Assembly (NCBI GenBank): GCA_023511915.1
Contig: JAIMAN010000027.1
Location: forward strand, 1-32,215
Reading direction: 5' to 3'
Length of the DNA stretch: 32,215 nt
Origin: Armatimonadota bacterium
GTDB lineage: Bacteria; Armatimonadota; Fimbriimonadia; Fimbriimonadales; GBS-DC
Of this stretch, positions 3 through 8,024 are shown piece after piece. Below the pieces are notes generated by a model that saw nothing but the letters and a program-made list of their open reading frames with translations, was not told where the DNA came from and made no database searches. The position numbers were made by a program, and so were the translations under genes. How positions within the stretch are numbered: position 1 is the stretch's first letter; each line of letters begins with the position of its first letter.

Positions 3-269
3 TCATGCCGTGACCTCCACCGCCGGGACGAGAAGCGCAACCGGGGCGGCGCCCAGCAGGCTCCCTATCGCGTGTTCTCCACCGACACATTCCCGCCCGT
101 GGCAGAGGCTTCGAAGTCCAGTCACATGCGTCCGCGGGCGTATGCGCTGCCCAATGCGCCGAACTCGCCCAGCAGCGGAATATCGAAGTACCCGCCGCCT
201 GAACTGGATCTGTTAAAACTGCCCCCTAAAAAACATGATGCCTTATGCTTCAGGCGGCGTCGTGTGTGA
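3..269 (+). CDS. Possible 3' end of a gene entering from the left edge (unrecognised)
   Basis: One frame stays open from the first bases of the window to a stop at 269. It encodes about 88 residues rich in Pro, Ser and Arg, including the stretch KYPPPELDLLKLPPKKHD. I recognise no domain. The reading would overlap the last 20 bases of the convergent sigma-factor gene. A PP-L-LL stretch of this kind occurs in linkers of several protein families, but no catalytic domain follows. It may be the tail of a real gene whose body lies outside the window, or an open frame by chance in GC-rich DNA. Confidence 0.3.
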   Translation, partial: SCRDLHRRDEKRNRGGAQQAPYRVFSTDTFPPVAEASKSSHMRPRAYALPNAPNSPSSGISKYPPPELDLLKLPPKKHDALCFRRRRV

Positions 270-1548
270 GGCGCGCTCGCGCGCGATGCTCCAGCAGCCG
301 CTGGTCGGCAAGGCGTGCAATCTGCTCGTGGTCATCGCAATCGCGCGGGTAGAACGCCCAGCCGAAGTGGATGTGGAACCGCTCGTGCATTGTGGGGCTG
401 AAGGCGGTCTGCAGCCACTCGGTAAGCGCGCCAGCCACGCGCTCGGCGATGCTGGGCGCATGCTCGCCCGCGTAGGGCAGCAGCAAGCCGAGCGTCGTGT
501 GCCCGTAGCGCCCCACGATGTCCGCCTTGCGCACTGTCTCGCGCACAACCGCCGACGCCTGAAGCAACAGCTCGCCAATCGCGAACTCGCCCAGCGCGTC
601 GAGCGCGCTCTTCTCGGCGGCGAACTCGAACACCGCGAAGCCAACGCTCTGGTCGTAGCGGGCGGCGCGTTGCACCTCCTCGCGCAGGCGCACCGCGAGA
701 TAGTCCGCCGAGAACAGCCCCGTCTGCGGATCCAGAATCCGCGCCTCGAAGTCGCCCCGCGCCAGCGCACGCGCACGGAACCGCTGCTCGTCGAGCCACT
801 CCGCCTCGCTGACAATCCGCCGCAGTTTCTGAGTCGCGTTGCGCAGGATATGCGAGACATAGTTGCACGAAATGCTAAGCATATGCGCAATCTCGGTCTG
901 GTTGTAGCCCTCCTCGAAGAACAGGTGCAGCACCTGCTGCTCGATTTGCTTGAGTTGTTGCATGGCGGTCTCCACGACGACGCGCTCCTCAATCGGCAGG
1001 TTGAAGGTCTGGCACGGCTCGCAGTTGAGCTTCTCGAGGTCGTAGCCGCTCCACTCCTCCTCCTCGTCCTCGTAGATGGCGTCGAGCGAGCTGACCTTGA
1101 ACACCTCGCGCATCATCAGCACATCCTCGACGGTTTTGGCGGTCATGCCCAGAAACTCGGCAATTTCCTGTGTTGTGGGCGGGCGTCCCAAGCGTGCGCT
1201 GAGTTCGTTGGTGACGCGGTTGATTTTGCTGTTCAGTTCCTGCAGCCACGCGGGCTCTTTGATGATTTTGCCCTTGTCGCGCAGGTAGTGCTTGATTTGC
1301 CCGACAATCAGGTGCGTGGCGTAGGTGGTGAACTTGACGCCTTTTTCGGGCTTGAACAAGTTCAGCGCGTTCAGCAGCCCCAGATAGCCCTCTTGGATGA
1401 GGTCTTCGATGGGTTCGCCTGAGCCGATGAACTTACGGGCGATGCTCTCCACCAGCCCCGACAGCTGGATAGTAATAGCGTCGCGCAGTTCAAAGTCGCG
1501 CGTCTGGCAATACTCCAACACCAGTTCCTCCGTATCCCGTTTTAGCAT
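250..1548 (-). CDS. Sigma-70 family factor (SigB/SigF/SigG-like) fused to a degenerate GGDEF domain
   Basis: This 432-residue protein has two parts. Residues about 30-245 are a sigma factor. Region 2 holds IEDLIQEGYLGLLNAL and KFTTYATHLIVGQIKHYLRD, region 3 spans about 100-155, and region 4 holds a helix-turn-helix (YNQTEIAHMLSISCNYVSHIL). The order resembles SigB/SigF/SigG-type alternative sigma factors. Residues about 271-425 then match the GGDEF fold: DPQTGLFSADYL at the start, RKADIVGRYGHTTL in the middle, and HIHFGWAFYPRDCDDHEQIARLADQRLL at the end. The GGDEF signature is replaced by GHTTL, and the metal-binding aspartates of the first motif are replaced (FEFAAEK), so cyclase activity is very unlikely. 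A ligand-sensing or dimerisation role is inference. It lies downstream of pilT and pilC in the same direction. An acidic linker (EDEEEEW) separates regions 3 and 4. Confidence 0.93.
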   Translation of the reverse strand: MLKRDTEELVLEYCQTRDFELRDAITIQLSGLVESIARKFIGSGEPIEDLIQEGYLGLLNALNLFKPEKGVKFTTYATHLIVGQIKHYLRDKGKIIKEPAWLQELNSKINRVTNELSARLGRPPTTQEIAEFLGMTAKTVEDVLMMREVFKVSSLDAIYEDEEEEWSGYDLEKLNCEPCQTFNLPIEERVVVETAMQQLKQIEQQVLHLFFEEGYNQTEIAHMLSISCNYVSHILRNATQKLRRIVSEAEWLDEQRFRARALARGDFEARILDPQTGLFSADYLAVRLREEVQRAARYDQSVGFAVFEFAAEKSALDALGEFAIGELLLQASAVVRETVRKADIVGRYGHTTLGLLLPYAGEHAPSIAERVAGALTEWLQTAFSPTMHERFHIHFGWAFYPRDCDDHEQIARLADQRLLEHRARARLTHDAA

Positions 1549-2849: not shown

Positions 2850-4031
2850 TTACGCGGTCTTGAGCAGTTGCACGAAGTTCTCCTTGTCCATCGCGCGGTT
2901 GACGGCTTCCTCGTAGGTGATGTAGCCGTTGCGGTGCAGGTCTGCCAGCGCGCGATCCATCGTAATCATGCCCTGTCCCGACTGGGTTTCCATAATCGAG
3001 TAAATCTGGTGCGTTTTGCCCTCGCGGATGAGGTTGCGGATGGCGGCGTTGGCGAGCATCACTTCGATGGCAGCCACGCGCCCGCCGCCAATCATCGGAA
3101 TCAGTTGCTGCGCGAAGACGGCTTCAATCGTGTTCGCCAGCAGCACGCGAATCTGCTCCTGCTGGTGGGGCGGGAACACATCGATGATGCGGTCGATGGT
3201 CTGCGGCGCGTTGCGTGTGTGGAGGGTGGCGAACACGAGGTGTCCCGTCTCGGCGAGGGTGAGCGCGGCTTGGATGGTCTCCAGGTCGCGCATCTCGCCA
3301 ATCAGAATGACATCGGGGTCTTCACGCAGCACGGCGCGCAGCGCGTTGTGGAAGCACTCGGTGTCGGTATGCACCTCGCGCTGGTTGACCATCGCGCGCT
3401 TGTGCGTGTGGACATACTCGATGGGGTCTTCGATGGTCATGATGTGGCACGGGCGCGTCTGGTTGATGAGGTCGATCATGCACGCCAGCGAGGTGGACTT
3501 ACCCGACCCCGTGGGACCCGTGACCAGCACCAGCCCGCTGTGCTTTTTGACCACCTCGTAGATGACCGACGGTAGGCGCAGCGACTCGATAGACGGGATT
3601 CGCGACGGGATGACGCGCATCGCCGCGGCGACCGCGCCCTTTTGCATGTAGACATTGAAGCGGAATCGCGCGGCGTCTTTGACCGTGTAGGCGAAGTCCA
3701 GTTCGTGATGGCGTTCGAACTGTTCCAGTTGCTGGTCGTTCAGCGCTTCGTAGACGAGGCGTCGGGTGTCGTGCGCCGTGAGTGGCTTGTAGGGCAGGGG
3801 TGTGAGGTGTCCGCTGAGGCGTATCGTTGGCGGCAGTCCCACCGTCAGGTGCAGGTCAGATCCGCCGCGCTCGACGCACTGACGGAGCAGGTCGTCGATG
3901 GTGATGTCCTCCACCGACTGCTCGTCGCCCGCGATTTGCAGGGTGACATCGGCTGCCTGATTCGTCGGCTGCTCGTCGTCCGCCGCCGCCTCCAGCCCAA
4001 CCAGTTTTCGCCAGTCGAAGTGTTGTTCCAT
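2850..4031 (-). CDS. pilT: Twitching motility retraction ATPase PilT
   Basis: PilT is the hexameric ATPase that depolymerises type IV pili. I chose the ATG at 4031 (393 residues) because GAGGGGG precedes it; the frame is open 35 codons further but without a good site. The protein has an N-terminal extension of about 42 residues, a PAS-like domain (IDDLLRQCVERGGSDLHL), a Walker A (TGPTGSGKST, 171-180), an acidic Asp box (TIEDPIEYVH), a Walker B (VILIGEMRDLET) and a His box (TGHLVFATLHT). The AIRNLIRE motif near 330-337, diagnostic of PilT and needed for retraction, identifies it against PilB. pilC follows directly. Confidence 0.97.
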   Translation of the reverse strand: MEQHFDWRKLVGLEAAADDEQPTNQAADVTLQIAGDEQSVEDITIDDLLRQCVERGGSDLHLTVGLPPTIRLSGHLTPLPYKPLTAHDTRRLVYEALNDQQLEQFERHHELDFAYTVKDAARFRFNVYMQKGAVAAAMRVIPSRIPSIESLRLPSVIYEVVKKHSGLVLVTGPTGSGKSTSLACMIDLINQTRPCHIMTIEDPIEYVHTHKRAMVNQREVHTDTECFHNALRAVLREDPDVILIGEMRDLETIQAALTLAETGHLVFATLHTRNAPQTIDRIIDVFPPHQQEQIRVLLANTIEAVFAQQLIPMIGGGRVAAIEVMLANAAIRNLIREGKTHQIYSIMETQSGQGMITMDRALADLHRNGYITYEEAVNRAMDKENFVQLLKTA

Positions 4032-4111
4032 AGCAACCCCCTCGGAAGGTTTCGAGCCGAGAGTATTTTGGGCAGGGCGGGGCAAAAACTTTACCGCGAT
4101 TTTGCGGGCGG

Positions 4112-4531
4112 CTACAGCGGCTCGTAGCAGAGCCACACGGGGCAGGGCGCGTGCTTCATCACATAGGCGACCACGCCCACCCCCAGCGGGTTCTCCATCG
4201 GCAGCAGTTTGCGATGATCGGTCAGCACCAACAGGTCAGCCTCGACCTCTTCCGCTTCGCTGACCAGCCCGTGCCCGACCTCGCGCGCCTGCACCAAGTC
4301 GGCGGCGACCACGACGCCCTCTTCCTGCGCGAGGTGTTCCGCTTCCAGCAGCATCTGCTCGGCTTCCTTCGCGCCAGGCGGTTCGGGATCGTCCACCTCG
4401 TGCGTGTAGCCGACCGCCAGCACATACACCAGCCGCAGGTTGCTGCGCGTGTGCTTCGCGAAACGGCACAGCCAGCGCAGGATGCGCTTGTCCTGCTCGC
4501 TGCCCCGATACGCCATCAGAATCGTTCGCAT
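4112..4531 (-). CDS. UspA-like small protein, coupled to the KimA-like transporter
   Basis: This protein of 139 residues begins MRTILMAYRGSEQDKR, the usual first strand of the universal stress protein fold. It ends with the family-like APCPVWL strand. The ATP-binding pattern G-2x-G-9x-G(S/T) is not evident (TDHRKLLPMENPLGVGVV in its place), so it may be a UspA member that does not bind ATP. The start at 4531 is only 2 bases beyond the stop of the transporter gene, indicating translational coupling. Since the transporter has its own cytosolic C-terminal region, this protein may be a separate regulatory subunit; that is inference. Confidence 0.85.
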   Translation of the reverse strand: MRTILMAYRGSEQDKRILRWLCRFAKHTRSNLRLVYVLAVGYTHEVDDPEPPGAKEAEQMLLEAEHLAQEEGVVVAADLVQAREVGHGLVSEAEEVEADLLVLTDHRKLLPMENPLGVGVVAYVMKHAPCPVWLCYEPL

Positions 4532-7382: not shown

Positions 7383-8024
7383 ATGCCCGACGCAACGAAG
7401 CGTCCCGTCGCGGAATGGCGCGAAACGGAGTGGCTGCAACACCTGCAGCGGCAGGCGCAACGACTGACCGCCTGCTCGCACTCTGCCGCTGACCTCGCCC
7501 ATACTTGCCTGATCGCCTTCTACGACCACCACCGCCGCTACCCGTGGCAACACCACGAACCCGCCCACGCCCTGCGCTGGTGCTGCCAAAAACTCCCCGC
7601 CCTCGCCTGCGACGCCCACCGCTATGCCCAGCGCCACCCCTGCCTCGCGCTGGAGACACTCCCTGAAAGCGTCGCCTGCGTAGACATCGCCGCGCAGGTG
7701 CAAGGGGACATTGACGGCGAGCAGTTCGTGGCGAGCCTGCCGCCGCGCCTGCGCGCCGCCGTAGAGTTGCGCCTTGCGGGCTACTCGTGGGACGAGGCAG
7801 CGCAGCAGTTAGGGGTCAGCGCCAGCACCTTGCAGGGCTATTTGCCCGATTTGCGGGCGAAATTCGTGGCTTTTTTCGGATACGACCCATCGAAACGGGC
7901 TTCTGAATCGTTTAAGGCAGAGGGGAAAACTGTCCCCTCAGATGATAGAGGAGGAGACACAGATGAAGGCGATACTCGGATTGGTGAACGGCTTGGTGAC
8001 GACACGGAACATGCTGCGGGGTAA
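7383..8024 (+). CDS. ECF-like RNA polymerase sigma factor
   Basis: The 213-residue protein has a region-2-like segment (SAADLAHTCLIAFYDHH, then ALRWCCQKLPALACDAHRY) and a region-4 helix-turn-helix (LPPRLRAAVELRLAGYSWDEAAQQLGVSASTLQGYL), the usual ECF layout. It is divergent from the usual family sequence, and the last 40 residues are hydrophilic and probably unstructured. Its 3' end overlaps a strong ribosome site (GAGGAGG at about 7948) and ATG at 7963, so translation of a downstream reading frame may be coupled to it. It opens the accessory islet. A candidate TTGACA lies at 7318-7323, but no clear -10 follows. No anti-sigma factor is recognisable nearby. Confidence 0.75.
   Translation: MPDATKRPVAEWRETEWLQHLQRQAQRLTACSHSAADLAHTCLIAFYDHHRRYPWQHHEPAHALRWCCQKLPALACDAHRYAQRHPCLALETLPESVACVDIAAQVQGDIDGEQFVASLPPRLRAAVELRLAGYSWDEAAQQLGVSASTLQGYLPDLRAKFVAFFGYDPSKRASESFKAEGKTVPSDDRGGDTDEGDTRIGERLGDDTEHAAG

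Follow-up and report, generated by a model that had tools for sequence, protein, structure and literature searches.

How might a sigma factor and a GGDEF domain work together within a single polypeptide? This question is raised by a gene at positions 250 to 1548 of the window, i.e., of the whole stretch of 32,215 nucleotides analyzed here. The gene was called from its open reading frame (ORF) and from Pfam and NCBIfam matches. It runs on the minus strand from 1548 to 250 and codes for a protein of 432 residues (432 codons, ATG start), with a Shine-Dalgarno stretch, AGGAGGAG, close 5′ of the start codon. A plus-strand frame between 235 and 1422 was discarded as an antisense shadow ORF of this gene. 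The preliminary description of the sequence had envisaged a one-protein signaling route from the GGDEF fold to promoter choice; it mentioned neither the strand nor the intact RxxD motif that lies beside the dead catalytic one. Our analyses strengthened this idea and narrowed it to a probable one-protein c-di-GMP-responsive sigma factor.

The sigma half comprises residues 1 to 250 (positions 799 to 1548, minus strand) and was assigned using Pfam, NCBIfam and Foldseek. Pfam detected sigma-70 regions 2, 3 and 4 in that order, all over their cut-offs (E values of 7.5e-18, 5e-13 and 1.9e-13), as required of a group 3 sigma factor of the SigB/SigF/SigG type. The top NCBIfam model was that of the SigB/SigF/SigG family (TIGR02980; E = 7.5e-51). 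As its score of 173 bits remains below the curated cut-off of 234.35 bits, we call the sigma half SigB/SigF/SigG-like by sequence rather than a certified family member. The runner-up, cyanobacterial SigF (PRK07408), reached 151 bits for a cut-off of 261. Foldseek matched the sigma side of the structural model to Staphylococcus aureus SigB in the holoenzyme and to WhiG in the RsiG-WhiG-c-di-GMP complex, both with high rmsd because the domain arrangement is flexible. In the AlphaFold model, a helix of residues 228 to 263 (positions 760 to 867, minus strand) leads from the recognition helix of region 4 into the linker that precedes the GGDEF domain.

The C-terminal part, residues 272 to 432 (positions 253 to 735, minus strand), adopts a GGDEF fold according to Pfam, to its nearest solved structures by sequence, which are diguanylate cyclases, to AlphaFold and to an alignment with PleD. 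The Pfam GGDEF model (PF00990) matched residues 272 to 424 with an E value of 4.3e-16 and a score of 59.5 bits, well over the gathering cut-off of 23.8. An AlphaFold2 model of the fusion built with 89 aligned homologues had a mean pLDDT of 87.8, mostly above 90 across residues 281 to 431, and a pTM of 0.54; thus, the domains are well modeled and their mutual placement is uncertain. The GGDEF half of the model superimposed on c-di-GMP-bound PleD with a Z score of 19.1 and an rmsd of 2.1 over 155 residues, so that the score and fold requirements of the family are both met. The complete GGDEF fold announced in the preliminary description behind a SigB/SigF/SigG-like sigma factor is therefore supported by the structure prediction it had recommended, which returned no other fold after the sigma half.

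The same description had called the domain catalytically dead, with GHTTL at the active motif and FEF at the first metal site. Both readings are correct. GHTTL occupies residues 349 to 353 (positions 490 to 504, minus strand) in place of GG[DE]EF, and not one of the 102 homologues carries GG[DE]EF at the catalytic position. Also lost are the equivalents of PleD D327, N335 and D344, which serve in metal and guanine binding; among the homologues these positions are scattered over many residues. Neither the motif nor the metal and GTP residues expected of an active diguanylate cyclase are thus present, and the fused domain is predicted to be devoid of catalysis in all 102 relatives.

In contrast with the active site, the putative allosteric site for c-di-GMP is intact. 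In PleD this I-site consists of four residues, of which R313 is contributed by the partner domain and the other three belong to a single domain (PMC7288161). Two GGDEF domains become cross-linked when a c-di-GMP dimer binds to such residues (PMC8041772), as also described for WspR (PMC2270323). The primary RxxD motif of the fusion, R340-K-A-D343 (positions 520 to 531, minus strand), corresponds to PleD R359 and D362; each of the two residues is kept in 101 of 102 homologues, and both in 100. R294 (positions 667 to 669), the equivalent of PleD R313, is present in 101/102 homologues versus 30/73 ordinary GGDEF domains, and R370 (positions 439 to 441), the third I-site residue equivalent to PleD R390, in 99/102 versus 53/73. 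All four occur together in 96 of the 102 fused domains and in 19 of the 73 ordinary ones (Fisher P = 5e-22, without correction for relatedness). The controls were GGDEF domains of Armatimonadota, a set that leans to high scorers. As RxxD by itself is found in 55 of these 73, its conservation may in part reflect ancestry or structure; what sets the fused domains apart is the full set of four residues combined with a lost active site. An intact RxxD in a dead GGDEF domain is the signature of PopA-like I-site receptors, which the fusion meets, and the charged residues are near-invariant across the phylum at 30 to 45% sequence identity. The "nucleotide-binding or dimerizing" fold of the preliminary description can be sharpened accordingly: the residues for GTP have been lost, whereas the I-site is conserved beyond what is usual for GGDEF domains, and no data exist on ligand binding itself.

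The first helix of the domain, which bears R294 (residues 287 to 294, positions 667 to 690), harbors three further residues, R287, E290 and E291, that are near-invariant in the fused family and not in ordinary GGDEF domains. They perhaps contact the sigma half.

Relatives of the fusion were detected in 129 of 151 Armatimonadota genomes searched (E ≤ 1e-40), most spanning both halves. A minority of matches covered the sigma half only; in several of these cases, the genome has the fusion as well. A scan of genome contigs, overlapping in part with that search, yielded 28 Armatimonadota loci aligned over both halves, including one in the complete genome AP024673.1. The occurrence of the fusion in about 100 genomes, complete ones among them, rules out an assembly or frameshift artifact. 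The search in related genomes proposed at the outset thus places the fusion across the phylum, and separate genes joined by error need no longer be invoked. Open frames of about 880 amino acids in G070, G087 and G109 were considered as pilC-sigma fusions and dismissed; in G070, pilC lies in another open frame. No record of the plasmid collection covered 80% of the fusion, the best being sigma-half matches of about 33%. This collection and the contig scan, which relies on near-exact peptides, are the only look taken beyond Armatimonadota, and absence there is not shown.

Phylogenies argue for a single origin. The 102 fused GGDEF halves form one clade against the 73 ordinary domains of the phylum (support 0.987), and the fused sigma halves form another (100/98), with a separate clade of unfused sigma paralogues (100/90). 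As each half is monophyletic, these trees point to a single fusion that dates far back within the phylum. The GGDEF part was lost once later, in family f25, and is very degenerate in family f9. The two f25 loci (L235 and L236) encode sigma factors nested in the fused clade from which the GGDEF domain is gone, a natural domain deletion that may serve for comparison.

Is c-di-GMP available as a signal? The genome encodes four canonical GG[DE]EF domains, a fifth partial match with GGDEF and seven HD-GYP matches (PF13487) over the cut-off; no EAL domain was found in it. The four canonical domains and the PF13487 matches suggest that c-di-GMP is made and probably broken in this organism. GGDEF, PF13487 and EAL matches are all absent from the near-complete fusion-less genomes G026, G043 and G044. 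Other fusion-less genomes, e.g., G041, have kept a full set of c-di-GMP enzymes, which indicates that the disappearance of the fusion cannot simply be equated with that of c-di-GMP. In the reduced 1.5-Mb genomes G054 and G055 (loci L116 and L117), only two GGDEF domains remain, those of an active-looking cyclase and of the fusion, and no PF13487 or EAL match was obtained.

The genomic context points to type IV pili. In the window, the fusion gene follows a pilT-like gene for a retraction ATPase (T2SSE family, positions 2850 to 4136) and pilC (T2SSF family, positions 1627 to 2838), all on the minus strand. Upstream of the gene block to which these three belong, a divergent gene at positions 7383 to 8024 codes for a small protein with an ECF-like match to sigma-70 region 4. 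pilC is located directly upstream of the fusion gene in 91 of the 102 genomes that yielded both, with a median gap of 143 bases; in the other 11 the two genes differ in contig or strand. Elsewhere in the phylum, other families have the fusion gene at the end of a whole pilO-pilP-pilQ-pilB-pilT-pilC cluster, in which pilO and pilP were named from position. Across 112 genomes of the order, the pilC orthologue is present in 87 of the 97 genomes with the fusion and in none of the 15 without it. Some of the absences reflect contig breaks or incomplete genomes, and nearly all fusion-less genomes of the order retain other, more distant pilC paralogues. G054 and G055 are exceptions: in both, the fusion persists in the absence of this pilC, and the equivalent of PleD R390 has been lost.

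No promoter motif for the fused sigma factor was revealed by k-mer searches or searches for SigB-type sites. The k-mer search 5′ of the sigma gene returned only words from the coding end of pilC, SigB-type GTTT-N-GGGTAT sites were not in excess over the control, and a sigma-70 promoter scan gave no excess over shuffled sequences. FliA/WhiG-type sites, TAAA-N16-GCCGATAA, were strongly enriched in the family, with 12 exact sites in the genome and none in the reversed control. They were rejected as the regulon of the fusion: a true FliA/WhiG sigma factor is encoded by another gene of the genome (237 bits; locus L002, G000:C54:2702-3373), and the sites lie before flagellar genes. Many exact promoters of the form TAAA-N14..16-GCCGATAA (loci L237 to L256) precede genes for flagellin, FlhF, FlgM-like and FlgB-like proteins, names that are our own reading of the sequences, and for a PilB/GspE-like ATPase (L241).

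These observations can be accounted for in several ways. The GGDEF domain might be a ligand-free module for dimerization or for docking of a partner, e.g., an active diguanylate cyclase, a phosphodiesterase or a pilus protein, its conserved arginines and aspartate forming salt bridges at the interface. Degenerate GGDEF domains can act through protein contact, and the family-specific R287, E290 and E291 on the R294 helix could mark such an interface. However, the four residues make up a single defined ligand site and are retained as a set, to an extent beyond that in ordinary GGDEF domains, and salt bridges would not need exactly those four. We consider docking unlikely without being able to dismiss it. 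Binding and reporting of another nucleotide, be it GTP, ppGpp or a different cyclic dinucleotide, has precedents in degenerate GGDEF domains that bind GTP or hydrolyze ATP (PMC7288161) and in PleD crystallized with (p)ppGpp. As the equivalents of PleD D327, N335 and D344 were lost together with the GGDEF motif, an active-site ligand is improbable, and we give this reading little weight. That the domain is a decaying, functionless remnant and the sigma half alone matters would fit its disappearance in f25 and its degeneracy in f9, yet it is hardly reconcilable with charged residues that have remained near-invariant phylum-wide in a fold kept at full length, and we find it very improbable.

A different alternative grants c-di-GMP sensing and questions the target: the regulon may be other than type IV pili, the linkage to pilC being historical. 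The presence of the fusion in G054 and G055 without that pilC is in line with this, as is our failure to find a pilus promoter motif. Against it, the pilC orthologue is co-lost in 15 of 15 fusion-less genomes and the two genes are adjacent in 91. We therefore treat a non-pilus regulon as a minority view that deserves to be kept in mind.

On balance, we favor, with some confidence, a sigma factor that responds to c-di-GMP as a single protein and is linked to type IV pili. This reading adds ligand binding, cross-linking, the sign of the effect and the regulon, all inferred, to the observed architecture, dead catalysis, I-site conservation, single origin, and linkage and co-loss with pilC. We propose that the N-terminal half works as a SigF/SigB-like sigma factor and that the fused GGDEF, having lost GTP binding and catalysis, would act as a c-di-GMP receptor in cis via its I-site. 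If PleD and DgcR are a guide, R340, D343 and R370 of one molecule would, together with R294 from another, bind an intercalated c-di-GMP dimer. This dimer would thereby cross-link two GGDEF domains and gate the sigma factor. As the GGDEF domain is connected to sigma region 4 through a helix, cross-linking might hold region 4 in a geometry that alters promoter binding or assembly of the holoenzyme. We consider inhibition at high c-di-GMP only slightly more likely than activation, a sign suggested by RsiG-WhiG. The targets most likely would include type IV pilus genes, as inferred from the pilC linkage and from the parallels of SigF (PMC7690835) and Rubrobacter WhiG (PMC8325347). Arguments against this explanation are the lack of binding data, the frequency of RxxD in ordinary GGDEF domains, the G054/G055 exceptions, the domain loss in f25, the enzymes of G041-type genomes and the lack of a promoter motif. 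The full version, in which the sigma factor is itself the c-di-GMP receptor, with ligand cross-linking of its own GGDEF switching promoter choice, no anti-sigma factor, and control of type IV pili throughout the phylum, stands at even chances in our judgment.

If true, it would provide a first phylum-wide regulator of surface life for Armatimonadota, very few of which have been brought into culture, and would join cyanobacterial SigF and Rubrobacter WhiG as the third case of a group 3 sigma factor tied to type IV pili. It would also offer a tractable two-domain system, in which a single RxxD-to-AxxA mutation splits sensing from transcription. No description of a sigma-GGDEF fusion was found in the literature, open-access papers only. 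Among mechanisms already described, RsiG-(c-di-GMP)-WhiG and receptors of the PopA type come nearest. We know of no PopA- or PelD-type degenerate GGDEF receptor joined to a sigma factor, nor of a GGDEF domain in cyanobacterial SigF, the second-best family for the sigma half. The latter controls the major pilin gene pilA in Synechocystis and Nostoc (PMC7690835). The product-inhibited diguanylate cyclases PleD and DgcR share the fold, and PleD the four I-site residues; they are enzymes, whereas the fused domain is without catalysis and has a sigma factor as its partner. Like PopA of Caulobacter and PelD-type proteins, degenerate GGDEF domains with an intact I-site that act as c-di-GMP receptors (PMC12564702), the fusion has a dead catalytic site and a kept RxxD; those receptors have other partner domains and other outputs. 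In the actinobacteria Rubrobacter and Streptomyces, a group 3 sigma factor is likewise under c-di-GMP, and in Rubrobacter this switch on WhiG controls type IV pili (PMC8325347). According to PMC8325347, no sigma-anti-sigma complex other than RsiG-WhiG is known as a target of c-di-GMP, which so far is known to reach such a pair only via a separate protein. There the ligand sits in a coiled-coil anti-sigma factor, whereas in the fusion the candidate receptor, a GGDEF domain, belongs to the sigma polypeptide itself, and the FliA/WhiG-type sigma factor of this genome is a different gene. The fusion thus probably combines two known principles in one polypeptide, a c-di-GMP-controlled group 3 sigma factor and a degenerate GGDEF I-site receptor, which, if true, would be the shortest route from a second messenger to promoter choice.
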